From NCBI RefSeq assembly GCF_005768555.2, contig NZ_VCHX02000150.1, positions 4,796 through 68,795 on the forward strand: DNA of 64,000 nucleotides. The letters run 5' to 3'. The first letter of the stretch is position 1. The number at the start of each line of letters is the position of its first letter. A model generated the notes under the pieces. It was not told the DNA's origin. It was given only the letters and a program-made list of their open reading frames with translations, and searched no databases. The translations under genes and the position numbers were made by a program. Shown here piece after piece: positions 33,071 through 59,051 of the stretch. Origin of the DNA: Streptomyces sporangiiformans. Its GTDB lineage: Bacteria; Actinomycetota; Actinomycetes; Streptomycetales; Streptomycetaceae.

Positions 33071-33529
33071 TCAGCTAAGTAGCTTAGTAAATGGTTGGTC
33101 GTGCTCGGGTGTGGAAGCAGGCGCCTGAGCTGCGGCTGCGGTGCGCCGCGAGCGACGCAGCGAGAGTGCCAGGCCGACGAGAACGGGTGCCGCCAGCAGC
33201 ACCTCGGGCCATACGCCGAGCCACTGGGAGAGGGTGAGTCCCGAAGAGAGTGGTACCCGCTCCACCAGATGGCCGGCACGCCAGGTCCCCAGCCGGTCCA
33301 TGACCTGTCCGTCCGGGGCGACGATGCCGAAGATCCCGCCCGCGGCGAAGGCGGACCGGACGCGCCGTCCGCGCACCGCCAGGATCAGCAGAGCCGGGCC
33401 GAGCGGGCCAGGAACCACCGTCCGACCGGCGGGAACGAGGCATAGAGAAGCAGTCCACCGGCGGATAGCCGCCGCCCAGGACCGGAGCGTGGCCGCTCTG
33501 GGACGGGCCACGCGCGGTGTACCGGTCAT
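33071..33529 (-). CDS. Hypothetical membrane protein (second gene of CPICNK operon)
   Basis: A 152-residue basic protein I do not recognise. Hydrophobic stretches near residues 45-53 and a convincing transmembrane helix WLGVWPEVLLAAPVLVGLALSLRRSRR near the C-terminus, followed by an Ala/Gln-rich tail. The start ATG shares one base with the stop of the upstream gene (TGATG), so they are translationally coupled. The final codons run into the CTAA-N5-TTAG palindrome at 33074, so the gene ends inside the operator of the lgt fragment. Function unknown. Confidence 0.6.
   Translation of the reverse strand: MTGTPRVARPRAATLRSWAAAIRRWTASLCLVPAGRTVVPGPLGPALLILAVRGRRVRSAFAAGGIFGIVAPDGQVMDRLGTWRAGHLVERVPLSSGLTLSQWLGVWPEVLLAAPVLVGLALSLRRSRRTAAAAQAPASTPEHDQPFTKLLS
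33074..33088. promoter_or_regulatory. CTAA-N5-TTAG palindrome, site A
   Basis: GCTAA-GTAGC-TTAGT; the inner CTAAG-TAG-CTTAG is a perfect palindrome. It lies 22 bp upstream of the truncated lgt. Confidence 0.65.
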
Positions 33530-33984
33530 CACGAAGGGACTACGCAGACGTTCGCGGTGCGCAGTCGCCGGACCAGCGCATGGACGAGCAGGGCTACCGA
33601 CGCCACAGCGAGCACCGGCTGCACCGGCGCGAAGAATGTCAGGGCGCCACTGACTCCGATGGCCAGCACCACGAGTTTGTTGCAGATCGGGCAGCCGACA
33701 GCGAAGGCGGACAGCAGTCCGGCGCCGAGGGCACGAACAGTGCGGGGACGCTCGGGCGGCGCGGTCTCGGAGGCTTCGGCCGGACCGATGCGCACGTATG
33801 TGGCCACCAGGAGCCCTTCCAGCAAGGAACTGACCAGCCATACGGGGTAGTTCCACCACAGCACCGGAGTCATCCGCGTGTAGAAGGGAGTCGGCACCAC
33901 ACCCGTCGGGACGCCGATGACGAGTGCGGCGATCACCGTGACCGCTGCTGCTACGACCCATCTGCGGGCGGGCCAGGTGCGCAT
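33529..33984 (-). CDS. Small polytopic membrane protein with CPICNK motif
   Basis: A 151-residue protein with about four transmembrane segments (near residues 9-30, 43-62, 85-105, 115-135). The membrane-embedded AVGCPICNKLVV motif near residue 95 is a CxxC pair in a hydrophobic context, suggesting thiol-redox or metal handling. The family is seen in actinobacteria as a hypothetical membrane protein; I cannot name a function. The ATG at 33984 has a GAGGAG site and is preferred to an earlier GTG. It is the first gene of a two-gene operon with palindrome B 100 bp upstream. Confidence 0.7.
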   Translation of the reverse strand: MRTWPARRWVVAAAVTVIAALVIGVPTGVVPTPFYTRMTPVLWWNYPVWLVSSLLEGLLVATYVRIGPAEASETAPPERPRTVRALGAGLLSAFAVGCPICNKLVVLAIGVSGALTFFAPVQPVLAVASVALLVHALVRRLRTANVCVVPS

Positions 33985-34083
33985 GGGTCTGCTCCTCGCA
34001 ATCGGGTCGCCGACCGAACGGCGAGGCAAACGGGGGATGCCTGATAAGGGCCTCCGGTCGGCGGCTGACGGCCATGCTAAGTC

Positions 34084-34098
34084 ACTAATTGGTTTAGT
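34084..34098. promoter_or_regulatory. CTAA-N5-TTAG palindrome, site B
   Basis: ACTAA-TTGGT-TTAGT, 100 bp upstream of the CPICNK membrane-protein gene. A second CTAAG half-site lies 7 bp to its left (34077-34081). Confidence 0.65.
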
Positions 34099-34113
34099 AA
34101 CAACGGGGGCTGA

Positions 34114-34371
34114 TCAGTGGTGAGTCCGAGGTTCGACGACGCGGTGGCCGTGGGTAAGGCCGGTCATGCGTCGCTGGTAGGAGCGTGTGTCGATCCGTCC
34201 GTGCAGCAGCAGGCCGGCACACCACCGCTCCTCATCCTCGAGCGCCGCGCGCCTGCCCTTGATGCGGGCCAGGGGAGGGCACCGGCTCTGGTGTGTGCTG
34301 ACCAGCCGGGCTATGTCGTAGTAGATGGCGGCGAGAAGCAGGCCGCCGATCAGTATCGCTATCGCGCCCAT
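34114..34371 (-). CDS. Small membrane protein with SHOCT-like C-terminus
   Basis: An 85-residue protein with one N-terminal transmembrane helix (AIAILIGGLLLAAIYYDIARL) and a cytoplasmic tail. The stretch EERWCAGLLLHGRIDTRSYQRRMTGL near residues 46-71 resembles the short helical oligomerisation module (SHOCT) found at the end of many actinobacterial membrane proteins. It begins 16 bp after the stop of the DUF2933-like gene, so both form an operon behind palindrome C. Function unknown. Confidence 0.65.
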   Translation of the reverse strand: MGAIAILIGGLLLAAIYYDIARLVSTHQSRCPPLARIKGRRAALEDEERWCAGLLLHGRIDTRSYQRRMTGLTHGHRVVEPRTHH

Positions 34372-34387
34372 GGGGCCAAGGCCCAGT

Positions 34388-34594
34388 TCACAAGGTTTCG
34401 CGTGTGTCCTTCTGTGCGGCGCGCAGCTCGGCGACTTCCTTGCGCAGCTCGTGCAGCTCGGAGTGCACCACGGGTGAGTCGATCGAGTTGCCTCGCCGGG
34501 ATGCGTGCAGCCCTCCGCGCGTCATGAACCACATCATCAGGCCCATGCCGATCGGGCAGGCCAGGAGGAGTAGTGGATACAGAAACTGAGGCAT
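34388..34594 (-). CDS. Small one-helix membrane protein, DUF2933-like
   Basis: A 68-residue protein: one transmembrane helix FLYPLLLLACPIGMGLMMWFMTRGG, then a charged coiled-coil-like tail SELHELRKEVAELRAAQKD. The CPIGMGLMMWFM segment is Met-rich with a cysteine, like small proteins encoded beside copper-handling genes in actinobacteria, and resembles DUF2933. A strong GGGAGG site is present. Palindrome C lies 49 bp upstream. A metal-sensing or chaperone partner role is inferred only from composition and neighbours. Confidence 0.7.
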   Translation of the reverse strand: MPQFLYPLLLLACPIGMGLMMWFMTRGGLHASRRGNSIDSPVVHSELHELRKEVAELRAAQKDTRETL

Positions 34595-34642
34595 GGGGGC
34601 CTCCCGGTGGACTGCGGGACACTCGTCGAACTCCCTCTATCT

Positions 34643-34657
34643 ACTAAGCAGTTTAGA
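34643..34657. promoter_or_regulatory. CTAA-N5-TTAG palindrome, site C
   Basis: ACTAA-GCAGT-TTAGA, 49 bp upstream of the DUF2933-like gene on the minus strand. The gap 34595-35006 contains no gene I can support, only this site and site D. Confidence 0.65.
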
Positions 34658-34825
34658 TCAATGGGAACGTTGATGCCAGTCCGGGCGTACTCGATCGCAA
34701 AATGTGATCGACCTGTTCCCGTGGGTGGCTCTGGAGGGGTGGGCCTCGTTGGCTACGGCGCGGCCCATGGGGTCGACGGCTGGATGCTCGCGTGCGGGTC
34801 GGAGGCGATGCGCTTGCCTATATCT

Positions 34826-34840
34826 ACTAATATGTTTAGT
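34826..34840. promoter_or_regulatory. CTAA-N5-TTAG palindrome, site D
   Basis: ACTAA-TATGT-TTAGT, followed at once by another TTAGT half-site (34842-34846). It faces the DegT fragment that starts at 35007. Confidence 0.65.
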
Positions 34841-35006
34841 GTTTAGTTCGGTAGTCGACGCTCGATCTCCAGCGGCCGCCTTCTATCCGCCCGCTGTGTA
34901 CCCGCCCTCAAAGGGCGGCACCGGTCACCGGTTGGGAGCTAGTCATCCCGCATGACTCTCCTTGCCTGAAGTCTCGGGGTGACTGCATCGAGTGGAAAGG
35001 GGAGCC

Positions 35007-35468
35007 GTGCGGTCAGGAGAGTCTCCACGTCCATCGCCGTCGGCCGGCGTCGCCCTCGAAGGTTTGATGCGTGAGCGGCTCGGCCGTGAGTGTGTGTATG
35101 TCCCGTCGTGCAGGCTGGCCGTGTACCTGTCACTACGCCGCTGGTGCGCTCCTGGCGGAACCGTGCTGATGTCGCCGGTCAACGACGACGTGATGGTGTT
35201 CGTCGTACTGGCAGCCGGGCTGCGTCCCGTTATGGCGCCGATGCCCCCTCGGGATGGGAACATCGACATCCGCGCGGTGCCGGAATCGACCTGGCGCAGC
35301 GTGGGCGCGGTGCTGACGACCAACGTCTACGGCATGCCGGACGACGTGGACGAACTGCGCACTCGGTGCGACCGCATGGGCATCCCCCTCCTTGAGGACG
35401 CGGTACACGCGATCGGTACGACGGTGGGAGACCGCCCGATCGGCACCTTCGGAACAGCTGCGTGGGGA
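35007..35468 (+). pseudogene. Truncated DegT/DnrJ/EryC1-type aminotransferase
   Basis: The first ~155 residues of a PLP-dependent sugar-aminotransferase-like protein are preserved: YVPSCRLAVYLSLRRW, GTVLMSPVNDDVMVFVVLAAGLRPVM, VGAVLTTNVYGMPDDVDELR and IPLLEDAVHAIGT with the Asp that pairs with PLP. Homology stops at DRPIGTFGTAA, just before the PLP-lysine segment, and unrelated residues follow to a stop at 35567. Without the lysine it cannot be a transaminase. GTG start with AAAGGGGAG upstream. Palindrome D lies 167 bp upstream. It is one of several decayed genes in the island. Confidence 0.7.
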
Positions 35469-35656
35469 TCACCCAGTCCGATCCCGCCTGCGCGCGTTGA
35501 TCGTTGTGTCCATTTTGTTCGCCCTTGGTGCCGGACGCGACGCGGCTTCGTGTATTCGGGTCCGTAGTGAGCCCAGTCCGTGGCGATGCCGTGTCGGGCG
35601 CACCGCGCTCCCGCTACCAGGAACACCGCCCTCGTGCGGTCAGCGACGACCGCCTG

Positions 35657-36553
35657 TCACGCGACCATCATCAGTAGCATCGCCGACATGGTGCCGCCCA
35701 TTCCGATATGAGCCGCCAGCGCCGCGTCCGGCGCGGCCCCGACTTTGCGGCGCCGACCGTGGCCCGGCCGCTCCGACGTCCGGGCCCTGTCCCACACCGA
35801 GAGCGTCAGTGATGCGAGGAAGACAACCACGGTGTCCGGCATGGCGAGTAGCCAGCGCCCCAGGCTGAATCCGGAGGCGGCGTTCCGGCCATCCCTGCGG
35901 GTACCCCGTACCCTCGCCCACACGGATGCGCCGATCGACAGCAGGAAGTACACGGCGAGGGCCGCGATCACGTACCGCCACAGAGAGGTGGAACCAGAGG
36001 AGGCACCGGCATCTGCCGCGGCCTGAGTCATGCCCGGCATGTCCATCCCTGGCATGGAGTGCATCCCCTCCATGGAGCCCATTCCCTCCATCGACTCCAT
36101 GCCGGCCATTTGATGTGAGTGCGTGTCCGTCGTGCTCGCTGTGTTCTCCATGCCCGGCATATGCGCCATGGAGTGCCCGCCGCCCAGGGCGAGCACCGGT
36201 CCGGACGACGTACTCGTCATGGCGAGCGTCATGATCACCATGCCGAAGCTGCCGACGATGAGGTGCACCCAGTGACGGCCGTGCTTCCACCCGCACTCGC
36301 GCGTGTGCTTGACGGCCATGGCGATGCCCCCGAGCCCGAGGAGGCCGAATGCCACTGACCACCACATGCCGTAGCCCGCGTACCAGCCCACCGTCGCAGG
36401 CAGGGACATGGCGGCCATGCACAGGCCCATCAGCAGGTCGCCGCCCGCAGCGAACCGGGTCTCACCGCTCGTGGTCACCATCCGGACCGCGCTGACGGCG
36501 GCCACCAGGGCGGCGACCACCGCCACGGCCCAACTGAGCGCCAGCATTCCCAT
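35657..36553 (-). CDS. DUF5134 membrane protein with Met/His-rich loop
   Basis: A 298-residue polytopic protein with about five or six transmembrane helices (LSWAVAVVAALVAAVSAV first). DUF5134 is a family of unknown role. Between helices is an extracellular-type loop packed with metal-binding residues: HSMAHMPGMEN, HSHQMAGMESMEGMGSMEGM, HSMPGMDMPGM. Repeated MxxM and HSM motifs are typical of copper(I) ligands. I infer copper or silver handling at the membrane. ATG at 36553 with GAAGGTGAAG upstream. A variant palindrome E lies 95 bp upstream. It is convergent with the DegT fragment. Confidence 0.8.
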   Translation of the reverse strand: MGMLALSWAVAVVAALVAAVSAVRMVTTSGETRFAAGGDLLMGLCMAAMSLPATVGWYAGYGMWWSVAFGLLGLGGIAMAVKHTRECGWKHGRHWVHLIVGSFGMVIMTLAMTSTSSGPVLALGGGHSMAHMPGMENTASTTDTHSHQMAGMESMEGMGSMEGMHSMPGMDMPGMTQAAADAGASSGSTSLWRYVIAALAVYFLLSIGASVWARVRGTRRDGRNAASGFSLGRWLLAMPDTVVVFLASLTLSVWDRARTSERPGHGRRRKVGAAPDAALAAHIGMGGTMSAMLLMMVA

Positions 36554-36647
36554 CTTCACCTTCTCGATCGTCCGAGCATGGCGGGTCTGCACTGCCGACG
36601 CCGCCTCGTCGTACGGAGTGCCCCGGGGCGCCGCGTGGGCACTAACT

Positions 36648-36662
36648 TCTAGTGCCCTTAGT
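36648..36662. promoter_or_regulatory. Variant CTAA-N5-TTAG palindrome, site E
   Basis: TCTAG-TGCCC-TTAGT, one base off the consensus, 95 bp upstream of the DUF5134 gene. An extra ACTAA half-site begins at 36641. Confidence 0.5.
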
Positions 36663-36740
36663 ACGTGTTGTGAACGGGGGGTGTTCAGGTGGCCGGTGGG
36701 TTTTCGTGCGCGCCGGGTCCGTCTGGGGTCCGGAGCTGTC

Positions 36741-37113
36741 TCAGCCGAAGTCGCTGACCTGGTCGAGCGTCGTAGGACGGGTGGCTTCCCACTGTTGCGC
36801 ACTCACCAGACGGGTCCGCTCCGCCAGTCGGCGCAGGACAGCCACGGCGCCGTCATCGAGGAGCGCACCGCTGTACCCGACATAGGCGACCACTCCAGGT
36901 GTTGGCTCCCAGGCCAGCACACCGTTGCCGCCGAGCTCCGAGCTGTGCCGTGCCGCCCAGTTCTCCAGCGCGGTGGGGCAGGCGTGGTCGAGGCGGTGTA
37001 CCCCGGACAGGTTGACCTCGACGGGGCGTTCTGGGGCAGTGCCTCCAGGCTGTCGAGGATCTTCGGCAGCCGCAGGAAGGTGGCGTTGCCCGTCAGGTGT
37101 GCCTGGATGGGGC
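36741..37113 (-). pseudogene. SulP-type STAS domain remnant, frameshifted
   Basis: The minus strand reads LTGNATFLRLPKILDSLEALPQNAP in one frame and then, after a one-base loss near 37018, VEVNLSGVHRLDHACPTALENWAARHSSE.., VLAWEPTPGVVAYVGY and a stop at 36741. This is the look of a C-terminal STAS domain of a SulP anion transporter. The membrane part is missing upstream. The frameshift and missing 5' end make it a remnant. Assignment to SulP rests on recognition of the STAS pattern only. Confidence 0.45.
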
Positions 37114-37195
37114 CAGCGCTTGCCTCAGAACGCCGTCGTCGGAGCGTGCGAGGGCGCGGGGCGGCTGGAAGTACGGCAGCCGTCCGGCAGGGCAC

Positions 37196-37602
37196 TTGCC
37201 CGCAGGCTCCTCAGTAGCGGAAGACCTGAATGACGGCCGGCGAGACGCCTGAGGCGGGTCTCGGTCCGCTGTGCGCGTTTCTGTCCGGCGACGAGGCCGA
37301 CGATGCCGCGGCCACGTTGATGTCCGTGGCCTGGGCGCCGCGTGAAGGGGCGTTCGAGGTGTGTTCGTCGGCCCGCTGCCGATCGCGGGTCAGGAAGTGC
37401 TTGGACGTCTCCTCAGTGGAGTGCGTGTCATCGCACACCAGGGCTTCGCCCCGAGGCGCCGCCGTCTCCTGCTTGCCTGGTGACACTTGCGTTCAGCTCC
37501 TGATCGTATGTCGTTCCGTGCGGCGTGGGGCTGCCGTAGCGGACACACGGGGATGCTCCACTAAGTGCGTTAGTGTATTAATCGTAGTCGGCGTCCGGAC
37601 GG
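37196..37602. other. Gap without a supported gene; holds palindrome F
   Basis: An open frame on the minus strand (37211-37486) has no recognisable domain and poor composition, so I do not call it. The region may be further remnant of the STAS-domain gene. Palindrome F near its right end suggests that a gene once read leftward from here. Confidence 0.4.
37560..37574. promoter_or_regulatory. CTAA-N5-TTAG palindrome, site F
   Basis: ACTAA-GTGCG-TTAGT; arms extend to CACTAA and TTAGTG. It is 74 bp upstream of an uncertain minus-strand frame and of the SulP remnant. Confidence 0.65.
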
Positions 37603-37860
37603 TTACGGTGAGATTTCACCCTCACGGGGATCGGGTTGAGGGGATGGCGCCGTCGGCTCTTCCTGCCTGCGCTGGCGCCTCTCTCTCCACATCACCTCCG
37701 CGGTCAGAATCACCACGAGGGCGACGACCAGCGCCATCGTGATGATGCTGATGATGGAGATCCCCGACAGGAACCCGTTTTCCTTGTCTTTCACGTCTGA
37801 CGCGACATGTATGACGCCGCTGATGCTGCTCGGGGCGTAGGTGTCGCTGTATCCGGTCAT
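37603..37860 (-). CDS. Small hypothetical membrane protein
   Basis: An 85-residue protein: a polar N-terminal half (MTGYSDTYAPSSISGVIHVASDVKDKENG), one transmembrane helix SIISIITMALVVALVVILTAEVMW near residues 36-58, and a basic, proline-rich tail. I know no family for it. It is called because it has a start with GGAGG-like context, a clear helix and palindrome G 56 bp upstream, matching the other small membrane genes of the island. Confidence 0.55.
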   Translation of the reverse strand: MTGYSDTYAPSSISGVIHVASDVKDKENGFLSGISIISIITMALVVALVVILTAEVMWRERRQRRQEEPTAPSPQPDPREGEISP

Positions 37861-37915
37861 ATCCCCTCCGGTTCCCCCGCTTTGAGGTGTGCGACGCCTA
37901 CGTTACCCGAGTGTC

Positions 37916-37930
37916 TCTAAGGGCCTTAGT
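37916..37930. promoter_or_regulatory. CTAA-N5-TTAG palindrome, site G
   Basis: TCTAA-GGGCC-TTAGT; CTAAGG-G-CCTTAG is a perfect palindrome. It is 56 bp upstream of the 85-residue membrane-protein gene on the minus strand. Confidence 0.65.
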
Positions 37931-37956
37931 AGCTGGCTTGTTTTCGCTCGCGCTTC

Positions 37957-39304: not shown

Positions 39305-39316
39305 GGCGTGATCATA
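39302..39316 (-). promoter_or_regulatory. Leaderless promoter of DUF6153 copy 1
   Basis: On the minus strand TATGAT, six bases (CACGCC), then the GTG start. The same geometry precedes copies 2 and 3. Confidence 0.6.
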
Positions 39317-39938: not shown

Positions 39939-39952
39939 CCAGGCACCGCCGG

Positions 39953-41333: not shown

Positions 41334-41348
41334 GCTAAGTAATTTAGT
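41334..41348. promoter_or_regulatory. CTAA-N5-TTAG palindrome, site H
   Basis: GCTAA-GTAAT-TTAGT, upstream of the methyltransferase gene and 50 bp after the FemAB fragment. Confidence 0.65.
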
Positions 41349-44154: not shown

Positions 44155-45180
44155 TCAAGGCCTGCTGGCGGCGAAGAACGGCATGGAGTCCAGCGGGACG
44201 ATCTCGATGTTCTTGCCGGTGCGCGGCGCGTGGATGGCCTTGCCGTTGCCGACGTACATGCCGTTGTGCTGATTGTCGTTGTACCAGTAGATGATGTCGC
44301 CGGGCTGCAGGTCCGACTTGGCCACCTTGCGGCCGGCGTCGTACTGCTGCTTGACGGTGCGCGGAAGCGAGACGCCCGCCGCGCGCCAGGAGGCGCCGGT
44401 CAGACCCGAGCAGTCGTAGGAGTTGGGTCCGGTGGCGCCCCACTCGTAGGGCTTGCCGAGCTGCGCGTACGCGAAGTCGAGTGCGGCCTTGGCGCGGCCG
44501 CTGGCCGGGCCGTTGTACGTCGCCGGGGAGTCGCTGACGCCCGCGGCGGTGTCCTCGCGTTCCTGGGCGGCCTCCATCCTGGCGCGCTGCGCGGCCGTCA
44601 AACTGTTGAGGAGCTTGCGGGCCTTCGCGAGCTTGTCCTGGACCTCATTCTTCGTCTGGGCCGCCTTGGTGCGCGTCTCCTCCAGGACCTGCAGACGCTT
44701 CTGGGCGGCCCTGCGCTCCTGCGTGAGCTCGCGCTGCTTGGCCTGCATCGCCCGCAGAGCCTCGGCCTGCCGGCTGCTCGTACGGTCGAGCATCTCGGCC
44801 TGGTCGAGGTAGTCGTCCGGGTCGCCGGACAGGAAGAGCTGCACGCTCGGGTCGACGCCGCCGCTGCGGTACTGCGCGGCCGCCAACGGGCCTATCGCAT
44901 CCCGCAGTTCGTTGATCTCCTGCTGCTTACGGGCCAGGCGGTCCTGCGCGCTGTCGGCCTCGCGCTGCAGTTTCTTCTGCTTCTCCCGGATGGCGTTGTA
45001 CTCCTCGGTGGGCGCCTCGGCCTCCTCGTAGAGCCGCTCCACTTCCTTGCGCACCTCGTCGATCGTGGGCTTGGGGGCGGCCTGGCTCTGCGTCGGCAGG
45101 AGGCTGACGGCACCGGCGGCCATGCCGAGCGTGGCGATCCGGGCGCGGCTGGGCGGCTTCGGCCGACGGTGCGATCCCAT
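44155..45180 (-). CDS. Secreted NlpC/P60 (C40) peptidoglycan hydrolase
   Basis: A 341-residue exported endopeptidase. A signal peptide (IATLGMAAGAVSLLPTQSQA) is followed by a long coiled coil (about 40-215: EVRKEVERLYEEAEAPTEEY onward) and a C-terminal NlpC/P60 domain. The catalytic cysteine is in SYDCSGLTGASWRAAG, the histidine in QHNGMYVGNGKAIHAP. The architecture is that of RipA-type D,L-endopeptidases used in cell separation and envelope remodelling. GAGGAG precedes the start. A CTAA-type half-site (ACTAAGT on the minus strand) lies about 150 bp upstream. NGMYVG replaces the more usual HVGIYVG. Confidence 0.88.
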   Translation of the reverse strand: MGSHRRPKPPSRARIATLGMAAGAVSLLPTQSQAAPKPTIDEVRKEVERLYEEAEAPTEEYNAIREKQKKLQREADSAQDRLARKQQEINELRDAIGPLAAAQYRSGGVDPSVQLFLSGDPDDYLDQAEMLDRTSSRQAEALRAMQAKQRELTQERRAAQKRLQVLEETRTKAAQTKNEVQDKLAKARKLLNSLTAAQRARMEAAQEREDTAAGVSDSPATYNGPASGRAKAALDFAYAQLGKPYEWGATGPNSYDCSGLTGASWRAAGVSLPRTVKQQYDAGRKVAKSDLQPGDIIYWYNDNQHNGMYVGNGKAIHAPRTGKNIEIVPLDSMPFFAASRP

Positions 45181-45325: not shown

Positions 45326-45338
45326 TTAGAACTTAGTA
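45326..45338. promoter_or_regulatory. Degenerate CTAA/TTAG site I
   Basis: TTAGAACTTAGTA on the plus strand gives a clean ACTAAGT half-site on the minus strand, about 150 bp upstream of the C40 peptidase. The second arm is not in the N5 register, so it is a weak match. Confidence 0.35.
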
Positions 45339-45404
45339 GCTTCGTATTATGCATCGCAAGTGAACCGAGTCACAGCGGCCTCATGCGGAGCTGTCTGTAC
45401 GGCG

Positions 45405-46316
45405 TCAGCCGAGACCTGGCGGGCAGGCGACCAGTAGCGGCAGCAGTGGCATCGTCACGACCACGGCGGCCGCAGAACCCCACAGAACGGGGTGCGGGGC
45501 CTTGCGGGGGCCGAGTACTCGCTTCAGGCGGATCAGGACGTTCTGGCCGCCTGCCGCCAGCGCACCCTTCGGAGTGCGGGCCGCCGCCATCTCGTACATC
45601 GCCGTGGCCAGCACCTCGTGGGAGTGGCTGCGCAGCGCGCGGTCGTCCGCGATCATCTCCAGCAGGAGCGCCGTCTGCTCACGGGCATGGCGGGCCAGCG
45701 GCAGCCACCGGAACACCGAGTGGAACGCTTCCACGGCGGCCAGGAACAGGTGGTGGCGGCCTGCGATGTGAGCCTGCTCGTGCTCCAGCACGGCGGCGAG
45801 CTGCTCGGGCGTCAGCTCGCGCACGGCCGCGTCGCTGATCACGATCCGGGGATCACGGCCGGGCAGACAGTAGGCGGCGGGGACGTCGTACGGCAGGACG
45901 GTGGCGCTGAGCCGGGCCGAATGGCGGCCCACCAGGTCGACAGCTGTCCGGTGCTCTGTCCGCACCCGACGGGCTCGTACGACATGGAAGGCGAAGCTGG
46001 CGACCAGGGCGATCCCGATCGCGGCAGGGACGCCGACGGCGAGCCGGTCCGCGGTGTCCGGGTCGGGCTGAGCCGTGCCCACGTCCACTCCGCAACTGTG
46101 CAGCAGGCCTACCAGGCCTGCGTGCAGGTGCTCGGCCGGCATGGCCAGGCTGTACGCGGCGAGCGCGGCCCCGATCGAGAAGGAGACCGCCAAGGCGTGC
46201 CACGCCGCTGCCGCCAGCGCTGGAGCCCGGTGCGACCAGCTACCGCGCAGCATGAGGTGCGGGGCGACGAACCCCACCGCAGCCGTGTAGCCGACCAGGG
46301 CCGGAGCCGCGTTCAC
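45405..46316 (-). CDS. M56 family membrane metallopeptidase (BlaR-like)
   Basis: A 303-residue polytopic membrane protease. Helices lie near residues 5-25, 33-60 and 95-115. The cytoplasmic zinc site is AVLEHEQAHIAGRHH near residue 178 (HExxH), and EMIADDRALRSHSHEV gives the third ligand. It lacks the extracellular penicillin-binding domain of BlaR1, so the signal is not obviously a beta-lactam. In this family the protease cleaves or inactivates the partner BlaI repressor. It overlaps the blaI-like gene by 4 bp (GTGA), confirming the sensor-repressor pair. Confidence 0.88.
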   Translation of the reverse strand: MNAAPALVGYTAAVGFVAPHLMLRGSWSHRAPALAAAAWHALAVSFSIGAALAAYSLAMPAEHLHAGLVGLLHSCGVDVGTAQPDPDTADRLAVGVPAAIGIALVASFAFHVVRARRVRTEHRTAVDLVGRHSARLSATVLPYDVPAAYCLPGRDPRIVISDAAVRELTPEQLAAVLEHEQAHIAGRHHLFLAAVEAFHSVFRWLPLARHAREQTALLLEMIADDRALRSHSHEVLATAMYEMAAARTPKGALAAGGQNVLIRLKRVLGPRKAPHPVLWGSAAAVVVTMPLLPLLVACPPGLG

Positions 46317-46687
46317 GACTCGGCCTTGGCCTGTCGTCCCACGTTTCGCAGGGCCCTGCGCAGGGCGGCCTGTTCTTCACCGGACATGTTCTCGACGAAG
46401 TGGACCAGCGCGGCCGGGCGGTCCTTGCTTTCACCCAAACCGTCCTCCATGAGCGCGGCGGAGTACGCCTCGCGGCTGCGCACCGGTGTGTACAACCAGG
46501 CGCGCCCCTGCTTGCCCCGCAGCAGCCAGCCCTTGGAATACAGGATGTTCGTGACGGTCATCACCGTGGTGTACGCGACGGGACGGGTCTTGTTGATGTC
46601 ATCCACGACCTCACGCACCGTCGCCGGACGGTTCCACGTCCAGAGACGATCCATGATCTCCGCCTCGAGATCCCCCAGCCGTCGCAT
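46313..46687 (-). CDS. BlaI/MecI/CopY family transcriptional repressor
   Basis: A 124-residue winged-helix repressor: LGDLEAEIMDRLW at the N-terminus, REVVDDINKTRPVAYTTVMTVTNILYSKGWL as recognition helix and wing, and a C-terminal dimerisation helix with AALVHFVENMSGEEQAALRRALR. Family members bind palindromes with TAC/GTA arms and are removed by the M56 protease. It is the only DNA-binding regulator in the island and so the first candidate for the CTAA-N5-TTAG sites. However, its own upstream region (46688-46770) shows no full copy of that palindrome, only TAGTA-type half-sites. Confidence 0.9.
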   Translation of the reverse strand: MRRLGDLEAEIMDRLWTWNRPATVREVVDDINKTRPVAYTTVMTVTNILYSKGWLLRGKQGRAWLYTPVRSREAYSAALMEDGLGESKDRPAALVHFVENMSGEEQAALRRALRNVGRQAKAES

Positions 46688-46758
46688 CGCCCTTACTTCC
46701 TTTCACCACCGAGTACGCAAGTCCATAGTAGACGGCCGCTCAGTCGATGATCTATGCC

Positions 46759-49400: not shown

Positions 49401-50552
49401 ATGCACTCCATGACCAAGAGTGACCTCACTCCCGCCGGCTCCGGCTCCGCCCTACGGGGGCTTGTCGGCAACACCCCGGTACTGCACGTCTCCCAGCCCT
49501 TCACCGAGCCGGACCGCGGCTTCTGGGCCAAGCTGGAGGGCTTCAATCCCGGCGGCATCAAGGACCGTCCGGGCCTGCACATGGTTGAGCGCGCCCGCGC
49601 CCGCGGCGAACTCCAGCCGGGCGCCAGGATCATCGAGTCGACCAGCGGCACCCTCGGTCTGGGGCTCGCACTGGCCGGAATGGTCTACGGGCACCCCGTC
49701 ACACTGGTCACCGACCCGGGGCTCGAAATGTCCATGACCCGACTGCTGAACGCATACGGAGCTCAGGTCAATCTCGTCTCCGAACCGCACCCCACCGGTG
49801 GCTGGCAGCAGGCCCGCCGCGACCGGGTCGCCCAGCTGATGGAGCAGCACCCCGGCTCGTGGTGCCCGGACCAGTACAACAATCCTGACAACACCACCGC
49901 GTACACGCCGCTCGCCCTCGAACTGGCCACGGAACTTGGCCACATCGACGTACTGGTGTGCAGCGTGGGCACCGGCGGACACTCCGCCGGAGTCTCCCGC
50001 GTACTCCAACAGCTCTACCCGGACCTCAAACTGGTCGGCGTCGACACCATCGGGTCGACCATCTTCGGCCAGCCGGCCCGCCCCCGCCTGATGCGGGGTC
50101 TGGGCTCCAGCATCTACCCGCGCAACGTCGCCTACGACAACTTCAGCGAGGTGCACTGGGTCGCCCCGGCGGAGGCGGTGTGGACCTGCCGCCAGCTGGC
50201 CGCCTCCCACTACGCCACCGGCGGCTGGAGCGTCGGCGCGGTGGCGATGGTCGCCGGCTGGCTGGCCCGCACCCTGCCCGCGAACACCCGGATCGCGGCG
50301 ATCTTCCCCGACGGCCCGCAGCGCTACCTCGGCACGGTCTACGACGACGACTACTGCGCCGCCCACGGCCTGCTCGACTCCCCACCCGCGCCCGAACCGG
50401 AGGTGATCGGCCGCCTGGACGAGAAGGAGGTCACCCGCTGGACCCGGTGCACCACCGTGGTCGACCCGCTCACCCTGAACAGCGAAGAGCAGAACACCGA
50501 CGTCCTGGAACTTGCCGGCGCCGCCGAGGCCGGCTCCGAGGAGACGGCCTGA
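49401..50552 (+). CDS. PLP-dependent cysteine synthase family protein, probable cysteine desulfhydrase (Cds1-like)
   Basis: A 383-residue fold-type II PLP enzyme. The PLP lysine is K54 in [12 protein letters not shown], the substrate loop is [11 protein letters not shown] at 80-90 and the phosphate cradle [10 protein letters not shown] near 185-194. The canonical TSGNTG is changed to TSGTLG. The overall look resembles actinobacterial Cds1 proteins, which break cysteine to H2S, pyruvate and ammonia, more than biosynthetic CysK. The stop overlaps the MFS gene by one base, and serA follows, so serine/cysteine flux is the theme. Sulfide made here could trap copper; that role is inferred. A biosynthetic role is the alternative. 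Confidence 0.8.
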
Positions 50553-51850
50553 TGAAGAGCACCCTCGCGCAGGTTCGTACCTACGAGCGCAGCGTCCAGC
50601 TGTTGATGGTGAATCAGTTCACCATCAACCTCGGCTTCTACATGTTGATGCCGTACCTGGCCGCGTATCTGGCAGGTCCCGTGGGCCTTGCGGGCTGGAC
50701 CGTCGGGCTGATCCTCGGCGTCCGCAACTTCAGCCAGCAGGGCATGTTCCTTCTCGGCGGAACGCTGGCCGACCGACTCGGCTACAAGCCCATGATCATC
50801 GCTGGGCTGGTGCTGCGCATCGTCGGCTTCGCGACCCTCGGGTTGGTGGAGTCCGTACCCGCCCTGCTCGCCGCTTCTGCGGCGACGGGGCTGGCCGGGG
50901 CGCTGTTCAATCCCGCCGTACGAGCCTATGTCGCGGCGGACGCCGGTGAACGCCGAGTCGAGGCATTCGCCCTGTTCAACATCTTCTACCAGGCTGGGAT
51001 CCTGCTCGGCCCGCTGGTGGGCATGCTGTTGACCGGCGTGAGTTTCCGCGTCACGTGCCTGGTCGCGGCCGGGATCTTCGCTCTGCTGAGCATCGTTCAG
51101 ATCCAGGCCCTGCCCGCCCGCCGGGGCGACGACGCCAAGCGCGGGCAGGACCAGGAGGGCGTGCTGTCCCAGTGGCGGGGCATCGTGTCCAACCGGCCGT
51201 TCCTGCTGTTCTCGGTTGCCATGATCGGCTTCTACGTCATGCAGTTCCAGGTCTATCTCGCCCTGCCGCTGGAGGTACGCCGCCTTGGTGGCGAGGGGAC
51301 TTTCGGCACGGCGGCGGTGGCGGTGCTGTTCGCCGTCTCGGGCTTGAGCACCATCCTCTTCCAGACCAGGGTGACCGCTTGGTGCAAGGCCCGCATGGAA
51401 CCGGGCCGCGCACTGACCTGGGGGCTGCTGACCATGGGGCTGGGGTTTGTTCCGCTCTTGGTGGCCACCGCGGTTCCGGTACCGGATGGCGGGGTGGGGC
51501 TGTGGCTGCTCGCGGCCGTGCCACCGGCGCTGTCCGCGCTGCTCCTCGCGATCGGCACGATGGTCGCGTATCCCTTCGAGATGGACACCATCGTCCGCCT
51601 CTCCGGTGATCGCCTCGTCGCCACTCACTACGGCCTGTACAACACCATCTGCGGCATCGGCATCACCCTCGGAAACCTGCTGACGGGTGCGGCGCTCGAC
51701 GCCGCCCGAGCGGCCGGGATGTCCGCGCTGCCGTGGGTGGCGCTGTTCGCACTCGGCCTCGCCTGCGCGGCCGCCCTCCACGGCCTGCACCGCACCGGCC
51801 GGCTCGCATCACCTGCGCGCGACAGGCAGCGAGAGCCCGCGACCGCATAA
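50552..51850 (+). CDS. MFS transporter (MdtH-like exporter)
   Basis: A 432-residue major facilitator protein with 12 predicted transmembrane segments. Motif A is in GGTLADRLGYKPMI between helices 2 and 3, and the N-terminal QLLMVNQFTINLGFYMLMPYLAAYL matches MdtH/YajR-like drug exporters. It overlaps the cysteine-synthase-like gene by one base, so its substrate is probably made or influenced by that enzyme: cysteine, a thiol or a related amino acid. A general multidrug role cannot be excluded. Confidence 0.88.
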   Translation: MKSTLAQVRTYERSVQLLMVNQFTINLGFYMLMPYLAAYLAGPVGLAGWTVGLILGVRNFSQQGMFLLGGTLADRLGYKPMIIAGLVLRIVGFATLGLVESVPALLAASAATGLAGALFNPAVRAYVAADAGERRVEAFALFNIFYQAGILLGPLVGMLLTGVSFRVTCLVAAGIFALLSIVQIQALPARRGDDAKRGQDQEGVLSQWRGIVSNRPFLLFSVAMIGFYVMQFQVYLALPLEVRRLGGEGTFGTAAVAVLFAVSGLSTILFQTRVTAWCKARMEPGRALTWGLLTMGLGFVPLLVATAVPVPDGGVGLWLLAAVPPALSALLLAIGTMVAYPFEMDTIVRLSGDRLVATHYGLYNTICGIGITLGNLLTGAALDAARAAGMSALPWVALFALGLACAAALHGLHRTGRLASPARDRQREPATA

Positions 51851-53708: not shown

Positions 53709-53728
53709 CCGACAGCACAACCGTACGG

Positions 53729-53772
53729 ACTCGGGCGCGGTGCACCGCCGCGGCGGTCAGCCGGGCCCGAGT
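53729..53772 (+). terminator. Possible hairpin terminator after serA
   Basis: ACTCGGGC and GCCCGAGT pair around a 28-base loop that itself contains GCGGTGCACCGC. It starts 21 bp after the stop. No T run. Confidence 0.4.
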
Positions 53773-54305
53773 GCTGTACAGCGGGTCCAGCGGGAATGCG
53801 CGAAGGCGGACAGCCGGCCTGTGTTCAGAGCCGTAGGCCCCGGCCTGCGGACCGCCGCAGCCGCTTTCCGCCAGGCGCGGGTCCCGCGGGGCGATGCTGA
53901 TTGCCGCCGAGGCACCCGGCGGAACGACCGCGCTGTGCCCGCGCCTGCGGGCGGGAAGCGGCTGCGGCGGCCGTGTCTCGGGCGTAGTCGTCGGCCAGGC
54001 GTGGTTGGTCGGCGGTGTTGCGGGCGCTGACCAGGGACTGGCTCAGCTGTTGCAGCGCAGGCGCTCAGCAAGACCGGCGCCTGCCGGGCGGTGGCCGACG
54101 GCGCCCAGCGGTCCCGGACATCGGCGTAGCGCGCGTCACGACGGCGGCGAGCGGGGCACGGAATCCCCGGCATGAGGGAGCGGGCCGCACTGTATGGGGG
54201 AAGCGTCAGAGTCGGACCGCGCCCCGGCGGCGGCTGGAGCGACGCCGTCCTCCCTCGTGCGCCGGACCCCACCTCGGAACTGCCGCGAACAGCGTGCAGC
54301 TCGTC
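53773..54305. other. Gap without a supported gene
   Basis: All frames in this stretch have shadow-like composition (Arg/Pro/Ala-rich) and no recognised domain. It probably contains decayed sequence, since a broken response regulator follows. Confidence 0.4.
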
Positions 54306-54570
54306 ATGACGACCGTGCTCATCGTCGGCGACCAGCGACTGCACCGGCCTGGGCTTCCGCATGCTGCTGGAGAGCACGCCCGGCACCGAGGTCGTCGGCG
54401 AGGCCACCCACGGCGCAGAGGCCGTCCGCCAGGCAGCCGAACCACGCCTCGACGTGGTCCGCCCTACGCCGCACTGCGCAGCGGAGCCACCGGCTTCTTC
54501 CTCAAGGGCGCCCTCCCGGACGAACTGCTCACCGGGATCCGCCACCTGGCTGATCCCCGGCCTGGCCGAC
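54306..54570 (+). pseudogene. NarL-type response regulator, fragment with frameshifts
   Basis: The pieces MTTVLIVGDQRL, then in another frame RMLLESTPGTEVVGEATHGAEAVRQAAEPRLDVV, then LRSGATGFFLKGALPDELLTGIRHLA, are the receiver domain of a NarL/FixJ regulator. A stretch around the phospho-acceptor Asp is deleted between the second and third pieces, and the HTH domain is missing. Not functional. Confidence 0.6.
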
Positions 54571-55659
54571 CCAGGAAGCCGCGCAGCAACGTGGAAGCCC
54601 TCTACTCCTCCACGGCGTTCCGGGCACACAACGCGCCCAGATGCCGCACGCCACGGCGCGGACGACGCGGTACTGGCGAAACTTGACGGAGACCGCGCTC
54701 ACCAGGCGTAACACCGCGCAGGGAACTCGGAGACCTGCCGCGCCAGCACGTACACCCCCGGCAGCAGCACCCTTCCTGCGCCCGTGGCGCAGGAGCCGGA
54801 CCTCTCGTGCAGCTGCTTGATCCAGGGGTCGCGGCCGACGTGGCCGCCGGCAGCCGTCCGCGGGAACGGAAGTCGGCGACGGGCGGGCGGGCGGCGGCAG
54901 CGAGATGCCGAACAGCGATCTGTCCCGACCTGTCCATCTGCACTCCTCGCCCACCACCGGCGATCGTGACCGAGGTTACCGCCAAACAACTAACTGACTT
55001 AGTTCGCTAGGAGATAAAGTGTGCCGCCCAGCCGAGGAATCGGCTCGGCGGCGAGACAGAACGGCACCGCCGCCCTCGGTCACCCCGGAGAACAGGAGCT
55101 GTTGTGCCCATCGCGCAGTGCTCGGCCCGCCCCGCGCCATGTCGCCGCCAACTCCGGTCGCCTGGGGAGCGCCTTCACCGCTCTGTCACCAGGGGCAGAT
55201 AGTGGCGGACCGGCGGGACGGCCACCGAGGAGCCCGGGCCGGGCCGACGCGCACGGGTAGCCCGTCGCGATCGATCCCTCACAGCCCGGTGTCAGGTGGT
55301 CATCGACATTCGGGATCTCCGGCGAACTTCTCCGCCGGTGTGGGAGGGGCAGCTGGCGCGAGGGCGGAACCGGATCGGAAGTGCTGTCGTCGGCGCTCCG
55401 CGGCCCGCGGCCCGCGGCCCGGCTCCGGCGGCCAGGGTCTCCGCTTGGCGGAACCGGCGGCCGGGCCTGTCCCTCGGTGCGCCGCCGCCCTGCTGGTAGG
55501 AACCGCCGACCCGAAGGTGCGGCAGGCGGCGGCTCCGGACCCTGACCGGTGACGGAGCTGACGGAATCACCACCAACCTCATCCTTTTCATCAGCCGGCA
55601 AGCGGCCCTCGTACGGACCCTGCCCGCGGCACGCGACAGTCACAGACTGAGGAGAACCA
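54571..55659. other. Long gap with palindrome J and GCGGCCC triplication
   Basis: I find no gene I can support. Several frames are open but lack recognisable domains, including a minus-strand one ending near 54602. Palindrome J (54989-55003) suggests a once-regulated promoter. A 7-bp unit GCGGCCC is repeated three times in tandem near 55400-55421. The 3' end provides the leader of the VanW gene. Confidence 0.4.
54989..55003. promoter_or_regulatory. CTAA-N5-TTAG palindrome, site J
   Basis: ACTAA-CTGAC-TTAGT; arms extend to AACTAA and TTAGTT. No intact gene starts close by; VanW begins 657 bp downstream. Confidence 0.65.
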
Positions 55660-57399
55660 GTGAGTCGCTCATCCCTTCTCGACCCACCAGCCGACAGCAC
55701 GTCGGCCGATCGTCGCCGAATAGGCCGCCGGGTCGCGCTCATCGCGGGAGCCGCGGTTGTAGGTTTCGGCGGGCTGTATCTGGTGGGCCTGCTGGCCTCC
55801 GGTGACGACATCCCAGCAGGCACCAGGGTGAGCGGTGTGGACATCGGGGGCCTTGGTCGCTCGCAGGCACGGGAGAAACTGAACAGCAGCCTGGGCGGGG
55901 CTTGGTCGGAGCCGGTGAAGGTACGCCTCGCCGACAGTGACGGCACCGTCGACGTGGCCGGCATATCTCTGGACAGTGAGGAGACCGTCGCCCGTGCCGC
56001 GCAAGCAGGGTCCGACCCGTTCACCGTGATCGGCCGCCTGTTCACGAGCGGTGACCGCGAGGTCGAACCGGTGATCCGCGCGGACGAGGCGAAAGCCCGC
56101 GCGTCACTGGCCGAGAAGGCGAAGACGTACGACCGGAAGGCACGGGAAGGTGACGTCACCTTCCATGCGGGCGAGCCGGTGCCGACGCGACCGGTCACCG
56201 GGCGGTCCCTGGACGTGGACGGCGCGGTCGAGGCCCTGGCCTCGTCGGTCCCGGGCCAGGGGAAGGAGCCGGTCCGGCTGCCGGTCCGCACGATCCAACC
56301 CCAGGTCGGCGCAGCGGAAGTGAACCGCGCGATGAAGCAGTTCGCCACCCCCGCGATGTCGGCGCCCGTCACACTCACCGCGGACGGCCGGGAGATCGAG
56401 ATCAGTCCGGCGACGCTCGGCAAGCACCTCACCATGAAGCCGGACGGGAAGAAGCGGCTGACACCCGAACTCGACAGCAAAGGGCTCCTGGCCGATCCCG
56501 CGCTGGCCAGCCCGCTCGCGCTGGCCACCGACGAGGCGGTCAACGCGAAGCTGCGCCTGGACGGCGGGCGGGTGGCGGTGGCCTCGGACGGCAAGACCGG
56601 ACAGGAGGTCACGGCCCAGGCGCTCAAGAAGGCCGTACTGCCGCTGCTGACCCGCACCGGGGCGGCCCGCACCGGAGCGGTGGCCACCGCGAAGGTAGAG
56701 CCCAAGCTGACCCGTGACAACGTGGGCCGCCTGGGCATCAAGGAGAAGATGTCGAGCTTCACGGTCGACTTCGAACCCGTTCCCTACCGCGTCACGAACA
56801 TCGGCCGTGCAGCGGAGCTGATCGACGGGTCGGTCGTGCTGCCCGGCGAGACGTGGAGCCTGAATGGCACCGTGGGCGAGCGGACCGAGGCCAACGGGTT
56901 CGTGGAAGGCATCATCATCAACAACAACCAGTTCGAGAAGGCGGCCGGAGGCGGCGTCTCCACGGTCGCCACCACGGTCTTCAACGCCATCTTCTTCGCC
57001 GGAGTCAAGCCGGTGGAGTACGGGGCGCACTCGTTCTACATCGAGCGCTACCCGGAGGGCCGTGAGGCGACCGTGGCCTGGGGCAGCCTCGACCTGAAGT
57101 TCAGGAACGACTCGGGCAACGCCCTCTACATCGACGCCGAGGCCACGGACACCTCCGTCACGGTCACCTTCCTCGGCACCAAGAAGTACGACTCTGTGGA
57201 AGCGGTCAAGGGCCCGCGCACCAACGTGAAGCAGCCGGGAACCCGCGAGGGAGCATCTGGAGAGAAGTGCGTGCCGCAGACCCCGCTCGAAGGCTTCGAC
57301 GTCGCGGTCGACAGAGTCTTCAAGAACGACGGCAAAGAAGTCGAGCGGGAGACCTACAAGACCCGCTACGTGCCCCGCGACGAAGTCACCTGCGACTGA
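55660..57399 (+). CDS. VanW family membrane-anchored protein
   Basis: A 579-residue protein with a cytoplasmic basic start (DRRRIGRR), one transmembrane helix (VALIAGAAVVGFGGLYLVGLLA) and an extracytoplasmic part. Two PG_binding_4/YoaR-like domains lie at about 60-330, and a VanW domain with PGETWSLNGTVGERTEANGF and GGGVSTVATTVFNAIFFAGV follows at about 390-510. VanW proteins accompany glycopeptide-resistance genes and are common in actinobacterial envelopes; activity is not established. A C-terminal cysteine pair (EKCVPQ..VTCD) may form a disulfide. GAGGAG precedes the GTG. It fits the island's envelope theme. Confidence 0.88.
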   Translation: MSRSSLLDPPADSTSADRRRIGRRVALIAGAAVVGFGGLYLVGLLASGDDIPAGTRVSGVDIGGLGRSQAREKLNSSLGGAWSEPVKVRLADSDGTVDVAGISLDSEETVARAAQAGSDPFTVIGRLFTSGDREVEPVIRADEAKARASLAEKAKTYDRKAREGDVTFHAGEPVPTRPVTGRSLDVDGAVEALASSVPGQGKEPVRLPVRTIQPQVGAAEVNRAMKQFATPAMSAPVTLTADGREIEISPATLGKHLTMKPDGKKRLTPELDSKGLLADPALASPLALATDEAVNAKLRLDGGRVAVASDGKTGQEVTAQALKKAVLPLLTRTGAARTGAVATAKVEPKLTRDNVGRLGIKEKMSSFTVDFEPVPYRVTNIGRAAELIDGSVVLPGETWSLNGTVGERTEANGFVEGIIINNNQFEKAAGGGVSTVATTVFNAIFFAGVKPVEYGAHSFYIERYPEGREATVAWGSLDLKFRNDSGNALYIDAEATDTSVTVTFLGTKKYDSVEAVKGPRTNVKQPGTREGASGEKCVPQTPLEGFDVAVDRVFKNDGKEVERETYKTRYVPRDEVTCD

Positions 57400-57753
57400 G
57401 CGACCGCCGGATGACGAGCGCCGGACCCTGCGGCGCACCCCTGGACGGGGGCCGGCCGACAGGGCCTCGTGCACCGTGGTCGTCGACTGCTGGTCAACGG
57501 GATCGCTGGTCTGCGGTGCCCGCCGGTAGGTATGCGGCTGAGCGCGGTGGGGTTCCCAGTCGGCAACCCGGGCGGGCGGGTCGGCCCGCAGGCGGGCGTG
57601 CGCCTCGGGGATGCCTGGCAGTTATTCGGAGGCGAGGGTAGTGAGGAACAGCGCCCGGTTGAACCCCTCCTGGGCCTCGCGGATCTCGTCGTCCCACCGT
57701 CGAGGACGGCTGGCTGTGGCACACGGCCCTCGGGCGTACGTTCCCGCCGTTGG
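57400..57753. other. Gap with unrecognised remnants
   Basis: No complete gene. The minus strand has a short ordered piece DDEIREAQEGFNRALFLTT ending in a stop, and PEAHARLRADP nearby, which look like ends of small lost genes but cannot be named. Confidence 0.3.
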
Positions 57754-58434
57754 TCAAACCGGCTCGACGGCCTTCGGCGGAGTGCGCTTGCGTCGCCCCC
57801 GCCGCGCGATGGCGAGGGTAAGCACCATCATGGTGACGATGGCAGCGATCGAGACAAGAAACGCTGGCGAAGTGGGGGATGATGCTGTGGCTCCGGCGGT
57901 CACGTATGCGGCGGTGCCAGGCAGTACACCGAGCGCGGTCGCGGCGGTGAAGGACCACGGGCGCACTCCGGAGAAGGCAGCGGCGAAATTGACCCCTTGG
58001 AACGGCACGCCGGGCACGATGCGGAGCAGCAGCACGCTGACGAAGCCCTGATCGGTGAGGCGGCGGTCGAGGGCAGCGAGGAGCTTCCTCTTCAACAGTG
58101 GCTGAAGCGCTTCCCGGCCGAGGCTGCGGCCGAGCCCGAAGGCGAGCACCGCGCCGAGAGTGGTCCCGATCACAGCCAGCGCCAGCCCCTCGGGAATGCC
58201 GAAAATGGCCCCGGCGGCGGCGTTGAGTACCGGCTTCGGAAAGAAGGCGAGGGTGCCCAGCGCGAATACCACGGCGAAGGCCGGTCCGGCCCAGATCCCG
58301 GGCACCATGGATGTGAAGCCTTGGGAGAGTAGCCGCTCCGGGTTCCACACCAACAGGGAACAGGCAGCACCCACGAGCAGCACGATGAGCAGCGTGAGGC
58401 GGGCTCTTGGCTGCAGCTTCGGTATCTTCTTCAT
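57754..58434 (-). CDS. TVP38/TMEM64 (VTT domain) membrane protein
   Basis: A 226-residue polytopic protein of the VTT/DedA-like family. A basic N-terminus and first helix (LTLLIVLLVGAACSLLVW) are followed by the signature FFPKPVLNAAAGAIFGIPEGLALAVIGTTLGAVLAFGLGRSLGR and RIVPGVPFQGVNFAAAFSGVR, including the re-entrant helix prolines. Relatives act in lipid scrambling or membrane homeostasis. It ends in a basic tail (RRGRRKR). The start ATG has AAGGAAGATG context. No palindrome is seen upstream. Its role in the island is unknown. Confidence 0.85.
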   Translation of the reverse strand: MKKIPKLQPRARLTLLIVLLVGAACSLLVWNPERLLSQGFTSMVPGIWAGPAFAVVFALGTLAFFPKPVLNAAAGAIFGIPEGLALAVIGTTLGAVLAFGLGRSLGREALQPLLKRKLLAALDRRLTDQGFVSVLLLRIVPGVPFQGVNFAAAFSGVRPWSFTAATALGVLPGTAAYVTAGATASSPTSPAFLVSIAAIVTMMVLTLAIARRGRRKRTPPKAVEPV

Positions 58435-58660
58435 CTTCCTTGTCCGGTACGGGGTGGCATGGCATGCGGTGACGGAGGATGCCGGCCGTTCCGGGCCTCT
58501 GCGCGGAAGGTCCGCAACGGCATTGGCGTGACCGACGGGATCAGGGCCGGTCGGGAATGCCCTGCATCTGTTTGACCTCGGAGGACTGGTTCTTCACCAC
58601 CTCGTGGGCGAGCTCCTTGGCAACAACATTACGGCCGTTTCTTCTGCTCGTTCGCCATCT
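58435..58660. other. Gap before a secreted-protein remnant
   Basis: No gene is supported. It leads into the C-terminal remnant described next, whose missing 5' part may be decayed here. Confidence 0.3.
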
Positions 58661-59007
58661 CGATCACACGCGGCCGACCTGCCAGCGATGGCCTGGCCGC
58701 CAAGGGCACGGACTTCTACCGCATCGGCATATCCGGCGCAGGCCGCTTCCAGGCCGCTGCCCTCAAGCTCCAGAAGATCGACGACCGCCATGGCGGCGCG
58801 CAGATGGTGGATGCCGCAGGCCGTTTCATCGATCACGTCGAGGCTCCCGCACGGCGCTGCACCTACGGGAGCAACCTGCAGACCCACCTGTACTGCGCCT
58901 CGGGTGAGATGGCCACGAGCGCGGGCTGGTTCGCGTTCGACGCGGGCCGGCAGAAGATCGCGCTGCGGGTAGCGGTCTGCCTGGTGGAACCGCGGGCCGT
59001 CAGATAG
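58661..59007 (+). pseudogene. C-terminal remnant of a hypothetical protein with a Cys pair
   Basis: A continuous frame of about 115 codons ends at 59007 and reads DGLAAKGTDFYRIGISGAGRFQAAALKLQK, then CTYGSNLQTHLYCASGEMAT, then GRQKIALRVAVCLVEPRAVR. The spaced cysteines suggest an extracytoplasmic disulfide. No start, ribosome site or signal peptide is present in frame, so the 5' end has been lost. I do not recognise the family. Confidence 0.4.
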
Positions 59008-59024
59008 GGCCAGGCGGTACTGAA

Positions 59025-59051
59025 CTACTAAGTTTCTACGCAGTGTAGTAA
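59025..59051. promoter_or_regulatory. Composite BlaI-like site K at the GNAT promoter
   Basis: CTACTAAG is followed by CTAC-GCAGT-GTAG (59036-59048), a perfect CTAC-N5-GTAG palindrome. The spacing equals that of the CTAA-N5-TTAG sites, and CTAC/GTAG arms are those expected for BlaI/MecI-type repressors. It ends 11 bp before the GTG start at 59062. Confidence 0.55.

Follow-up and report, generated by a model that had tools for sequence, protein, structure and literature searches.

What reads the short palindrome CTAA-N5-TTAG, which recurs over part of a Streptomyces sporangiiformans contig, and do the genes that follow it belong together? The palindrome lies in a 64,000-nucleotide stretch of contig NZ_VCHX02000150.1 (assembly GCF_005768555.2; the whole stretch is called the window and is numbered from its first letter), on an island that also encodes a BlaI-family repressor and, in an overlapping gene, a membrane metalloprotease. 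A preliminary description, made from the sequence alone, had proposed one regulator of a metal/envelope regulon, with the island BlaI as the candidate. Our comparison with other genomes favours that proposal, in the form of a predicted regulon of envelope functions with metal-related genes among its members. The candidate passed the comparative check as well, since the sites recur upstream of orthologues elsewhere. Very probably, the sites are operators of the island BlaI, which would repress a joint regulon that is induced through the protease.

Within the window, CTAA-N5-TTAG has nine matches with at most one mismatch (1-based starts in Table 1), eight of them exact and the one at 36649 with a single change. 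This agrees with the preliminary description except that each start lies one base to the right of where it had been put; a further site with CTAC-N5-GTAG arms, CTACGCAGTGTAG, is found at 59036, exactly as described. The regions 1–33 kb and 60–64 kb had been said to hold no exact copy, and none is present there even with one mismatch. Shuffled versions of the window gave a mean of 1.34 matches and a maximum of 4, with 0 of 100 reaching nine. When the arms were fixed and spacings of 0 to 24 scanned, spacing 5 yielded eight copies, spacing 12 two, spacing 13 one and all others none. The eight exact palindromes take up 8 of the 14 CTAA and 8 of the 15 TTAG words of the window, numbers from which only ~0.003 exact copies would be expected.

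Across the 10.36-Mb genome there are ten exact copies, eight of them in the window, against eight of the same pattern written backwards. One of the other two (C272:125695) is 3.4 kb from a second BlaI gene, whose product is 87% identical to the island BlaI; the other (C344:70779) was set aside as background, as it scores below 12 bits with the matrix and has no other site of at least 12 bits in the surrounding 14 kb. The longer form TACTAA-N5-TTAGTA, with up to two mismatches, occurs at 14 places in this genome: nine in the window, two by the second BlaI gene, one before a second DUF5134 gene and two elsewhere (the two-mismatch sites include C204 and C317). In 100 other genomes of the genus, exact CTAA-N5-TTAG copies number between 0 and 11 per genome. 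The cluster is thus confirmed as real and local. A chance accumulation in DNA of lower G+C content, to which the slightly A+T-richer composition at 34–38 kb (65.6–66.6% G+C) might have lent itself, is refuted by the shuffles, by the prominence of spacing 5 and by the conservation of orthologous sites described below, and we regard it as practically discounted.

Of 121 genomes of the genus, counting that of the window, 118 encode BlaI homologues (E ≤ 1e-20). Using a matrix built from the window sites, we scanned 40 loci around such genes, 38 of ~20 kb and two shorter: three paralogues from the same genome (L031–L033), the 31 best BlaI matches in order, with the window's own omitted (L034–L064), and six lower-ranked matches picked by hand (L065–L070). 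Divided into 33 island-type and seven housekeeping-type loci—a split made after the site results had been seen—27 of the 33 island-type loci carry a site of at least 14 bits. Exact sites number 14 in 31 of these 33 (G108 and G115 lacked genome totals and were left out), compared with 0.185 expected from per-genome counts; in the seven housekeeping-type loci there is one against 0.053 expected. When only matches of at least 15 bits are counted, these 33 loci hold 37 with spacing 5, whereas spacings 2, 3, 4, 6 and 7 give 1, 2, 0, 0 and 0 and the reversed matrix gives six; 15 matches with spacing 8 are explained by the inner CTA repeat of CTACTAA. Spacing 5 dominates in the window and in the 33 loci alike, and other arm spacings were rejected.

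The sites recur in front of the same genes. All 13 NlpC/P60 genes matched in L031–L070 have a site of at least 15 bits within ~170 bp upstream. Among eight DUF5134 homologues outside the window, six have one of at least 12 bits before the 5′ end of the matched frame or directly against it. Of the remaining two, the homologue in the same genome is preceded, at 67 bp, by a two-mismatch site, and the other has a site of 11.6 bits. Locus L064 carries a counterpart at lgt, placed as the window site at 33075 is, and another (10744) upstream of the orthologue of the small membrane protein at 33529–33984, while a site in L031 (6593) precedes a 60% orthologue of the membrane protein at 37603–37860. A scan of this genome and of related Streptomyces had been suggested as the check, and sites upstream of orthologues (NlpC/P60, DUF5134, lgt, membrane proteins) are what it returned.

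Aligning 38 site–gene pairs, hand-chosen and many of them homologous, yielded the consensus TACTAAG-N3-CTTAGTA. Centres and flanks vary from site to site; arms and spacing are constant. In 22 of the 38 pairs the pattern TAnnnT stands on the gene side of the site, against 8 pairs with it on the far side, a bias that fits repression by promoter blocking. Three other −10-like patterns were compared likewise: TAG... shows no bias (33 versus 36), and two rarer ones are too few to judge (4 versus 0 and 4 versus 2). Extra half-sites 8 bp away are present at several promoters (34077, 59028 and in L034, L046 and L049). These features bear on whether the palindromes might be a mobile-element, recombination or terminator-like repeat, clustered as they are on an island that also carries gene fragments. 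Fixed arms and spacing around variable centres and flanks are unlike a repeat, however, and the sites lie upstream of genes, with TAnnnT commoner towards the gene, and are kept before orthologues in rearranged loci and on plasmids. Position and conservation largely refute this explanation, which we consider very improbable.

Loci that had played no part in the first sample were scanned as well. Of six hold-out Streptomyces BlaI loci (70–91% identity), taken from genomes not used before for BlaI, three have sites of at least 15 bits and three have none of 14. Further support for BlaI operators came from both loci taken from other families within the class, where BlaI identity is 51–56% and three and two sites are present: two of the three in L121 precede a DUF2933-like gene (site 10327) and a DUF305 gene, and in L122 one precedes an F510_1955-like gene and one lies between the DUF305 and BlaI genes. 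In these eight later loci, neither the reversed matrix nor spacings 3, 4, 6 and 7 gave any match of at least 15 bits.

Much of the island content is shared, in fuller form, with the linear plasmid pFRL4 of Streptomyces sp. F2, including the VanW, GNAT, M15, MurJ, FemA/B, methyltransferase, C40, M56, BlaI, DUF305 and DUF6153 genes; the plasmid additionally encodes a multicopper oxidase and ResB/CcsB. Its 47-kb stretch contains 12 sites of at least 14 bits, 11 intergenic and the last within ResB, 25 bp past its annotated start, and none with the reversed matrix. Over eight pairs, the distance from site to gene is ~30 bp at its shortest, before a lipoprotein gene, and reaches 340 bp for M23 and 504 bp for VanW. 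The tandem arrangement at 59028/59036 has its counterpart at 10130/10138, upstream of GNAT-M15. Plasmids pFRL3 and pFRL6 and one from S. longwoodensis also carry sites.

Starting from the motif rather than from BlaI, we found CTAA-N5-TTAGTA at 20 sites in 120 other genomes (27 over all 121). At least ten of these sites have a BlaI homologue no more than 10 kb away, where ~0.06 would be expected (taking ~1.35 homologues in a genome of 8.6 Mb, both round figures). For two others the distance is within 12 kb, and the resulting 12 include three of the housekeeping type. The motif-first and BlaI-first tests share several loci and are not independent.

Could a different regulator bind the motif while the island BlaI merely travels with it? 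Candidates would be a TetR- or sigma-type protein on related islands, TetR and SigE-type genes being present in the same region of pFRL4, or the chromosomal housekeeping BlaI, as the motif stands upstream of an M23 endopeptidase gene in five of the seven housekeeping-type loci and paralogues may share sites. Yet several loci (L037, L049, L050, L052 and L054 among them) match the window in BlaI and protease only and still carry sites, and of the 29 window genes compared only blaI encodes a DNA-binding protein, although no search was made for further regulators in those loci. We therefore rate such a regulator as unlikely, though less so than a repeat.

In the loci with the M23 gene (L065 and L067–L070), that gene lies beyond clpC, and the motif is 6–9 kb from a BlaI of 52–55% identity, in two loci as pairs 92 bp apart; in a sixth housekeeping-type locus the match falls at the very edge of the scanned DNA. 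Gene order is conserved among these loci, so the M23 cases are not independent. From this placement, a wall hydrolase may be controlled by the chromosomal BlaI through the same code.

Several observations weigh against the island BlaI as the reader of these sites. Six of the 33 island-type loci lack a site of at least 14 bits (L032, a 78% paralogue, L042, L053 and L056–L058), as do three of the six hold-out Streptomyces loci and the DUF5134 gene of hold-out locus L118, the ninth homologue outside the window. In the eight later loci only one of four NlpC matches, two of which are themselves partial, has a site. Among the motif-first sites, eight of the 20 have no BlaI within 12 kb among the matches listed, five being on contigs without BlaI among those matches and three far from one. 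Of 392 genomes, three hold the perfect 17-mer TACTAA-N5-TTAGTA, and no BlaI stands beside any of the three copies (over a stretch of 5.2 kb for one and ~10 kb on each side for two). The protease matches M56 with 24 bits, below the Pfam cut-off of 31, and the predicted operator of blaI itself is degenerate. Backwards controls are commoner than the motif in this genome when two mismatches are allowed (G000; 29 versus 14) and over the 121 genomes for CTAA-N5-TTAGTA (~69 versus 27), and lowering the threshold to a loose 9.5 bits yields 83 matches in the 40 loci versus 82 with the reversed matrix. The case consequently rests on the strong sites and their placement, not on abundance.

The proteins themselves are consistent with a repressor and its protease. 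The closest solved structure to the island BlaI is 2g9w (88 bits), whose record title reads only ‘conserved hypothetical protein’ and which has the stretch AYTTVM in common with it; we take 2g9w to be the mycobacterial BlaI (Rv1846c) and this stretch to be part of the DNA-reading helix. A weak TIGR02698 match (27.2 bits) and the metal-related genes nearby recall CopY, but the score is far below the equivalog cut-off of 121.95 and membership was rejected. The protease scores 36.9 bits against M48, above the cut-off of 20.3. Neither a domain search nor inspection of the sequence found a C-terminal beta-lactam-binding sensor domain in its 303 residues, on which ground BlaR1-type beta-lactam sensing was rejected. 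The degenerate operator overlapping the blaI −10 region is kept in nine other blaI promoters (L031, L034–L038, L047, L092 and L094), making autoregulation plausible but not secure.

In the mechanism we propose, a BlaI dimer would sit on TACTAAG-N3-CTTAGTA, just upstream of or over each −10 region, and block transcription. Upon an envelope signal (metal or wall stress), the metalloprotease would cut BlaI, and its loss would jointly induce the DUF5134 and DUF2933-like operons, which encode metal-associated membrane proteins, and the NlpC/P60–F510_1955, lgt, VanW, GNAT-M15 and methyltransferase operons. The motif, its rarity, where it lies, its conservation and its link to BlaI are shown here; DNA binding is inferred, as are, on the model of the family (PMC7593790), repression, proteolysis of BlaI by its partner and the signal. 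Judged by comparative evidence, the repressor family is a known one and the regulon appears to be genuine, with a predicted operator that is newly derived and an interesting mix of metal-related and wall genes.

We also advance, tentatively and at somewhat less than even confidence, a broader picture: a mobile regulon of actinobacteria that is borne in part by linear plasmids and whose single, sensorless BlaI–metalloprotease pair would answer an envelope signal (probably damage by copper or a related metal) and switch on metal-binding lipoproteins, membrane proteins and peptidoglycan-remodelling enzymes. Genes would join through the 17-base operator, and chromosomal BlaI paralogues would share the code for a cell-wall hydrolase. 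On the operator reading itself, TACTAAG-N3-CTTAGTA is the likely binding code of a little-studied Streptomyces BlaI clade, DUF5134, DUF2933-like, F510_1955 and small membrane proteins would be tied to one regulator together with wall enzymes, and their shared inducer could be tested with a single reporter.

How new is this? The preliminary description called the regulon undescribed. The open-access literature that we searched holds no description of the refined operator and regulon, but BlaI-type repression of several promoters was already known and a motif of the same geometry has been published. According to PMC8457756, DNA affinity purification sequencing (DAP-seq) of Clostridium thermocellum BlaI_0696 gave a motif of two inverted GTCTAT repeats separated by five bases (CTAT-N5-ATAG), and electrophoretic mobility shift assays (EMSA) showed a modest preference for it. 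The likeness lies in the BlaI family, in a regulon with blaR1-type genes and in the CTAW-N5-WTAG geometry, obtained there by independent experiment; the fourth arm base is T in Clostridium and A on the island. BlaI_0696 has three target operons with two dyads each, and a beta-lactam response was proposed for it; the island has many more targets, mostly with single sites. Mycobacterial BlaI likewise has more than one target promoter (PMC12565901), although its target genes differ from the island's. In the staphylococcal BlaI–BlaR1 and MecI–MecR1 systems, as described in PMC7593790 and PMC9834060, a repressor is paired with a membrane metalloprotease that destroys it, like the island gene pair. 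The island differs in that its protease has no beta-lactam sensor domain that we found and no beta-lactamase was seen among the targets.

Table 1 Predicted operators in the window and the gene pair proposed to act on them.
Feature	Position	Strand	Remarks
Predicted operator	33075..33087	-	Exact; before lgt fragment (start 33052), 60 aa; TAGAGT −10-like element after site
Predicted operator + CTAA half-site (34077)	34077..34097 (core 34085-34097)	-	Before small membrane protein 33529-33984
Predicted operator	34644..34656	-	Exact; before DUF2933-like membrane protein 34388-34594
Predicted operator	34827..34839	.	Exact; would serve DegT fragment 34992 (+) or a minus-strand transcript
Predicted operator	36649..36661	-	One change; before DUF5134 gene 35657-36592; counterparts in L076, L077, L078, L080, L081, L082
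Predicted operator	37561..37573	-	Exact; before ORF 37211-37486
Predicted operator	37917..37929	-	Exact; before small membrane protein 37603-37860
Predicted operator	41335..41347	+	Exact; before methyltransferase gene; 17-mer same as pFRL4 methyltransferase site (L092 20612)
Variant predicted operator	45332..45344	-	Before NlpC/P60 (C40) gene 44155-45180; 17-mer same as pFRL4 C40 site (L092 30113)
Membrane M48/M56-type metalloprotease, HEQAH (HExxH)	45405..46316	-	303 aa; gene overlaps blaI
BlaI/MecI/CopY-family repressor, proposed binder	46313..46687	-	PF03965 86.8 bits vs cut-off 22.6
Degenerate predicted operator TACTAT-N5-TGCGTA (CTACTATG-N4-TGCGTA)	46714..46730	-	Overlaps blaI −10 region
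Predicted operator	54990..55002	+	Exact; before ORF 55019 and VanW gene 55783-57399; pFRL4 counterpart 7702
CTAA half-site (59028) + CTAC-N5-GTAG predicted operator (59036)	59028..59048	+	Before GNAT gene 59221-59838

Four elements in Table 1 had been missed earlier: the variant at 45332, the half-sites at 34077 and 59028 and the degenerate site at the blaI promoter. As to the targets first listed, not all are convincing: the site at 34827 may serve the minus strand, where TAGATAT comes after it, rather than the DegT fragment. The DUF2933 match of the protein at 34388–34594 scores below the Pfam cut-off, the ORF at 37211–37486 matches no Pfam family, and the DUF305 and DUF6153 genes of the window have no site of their own.

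Between 32870 and 41300, gene fragments (the lgt piece and parts of DegT, MurJ and a FemA/B-like gene) adjoin intact operators; on pFRL4, MurJ and FemA/B are annotated at full length. Two genes at 49401–51850, one for a PLP-dependent enzyme like cysteine synthase and one for an MFS transporter, accompany BlaI in L036, L044, L046, L053 and, on pFRL4, L092, and no site of 12 bits or more precedes them in the window or on pFRL4. Motif pairs 218 bp apart occur in L098 (9751/9969) and L099 (9719/9937) with no BlaI within ~10 kb, the former before an open reading frame that by eye resembles a secreted CAP/SCP-domain protein. Finally, genomes G013, G016, G032, G033, G035 and G084 contain close tandem CTAA-N5-TTAG pairs 20–35 bp apart, mostly CTAAC-N3-GTTAG, which, by their form, look like sites of another system.

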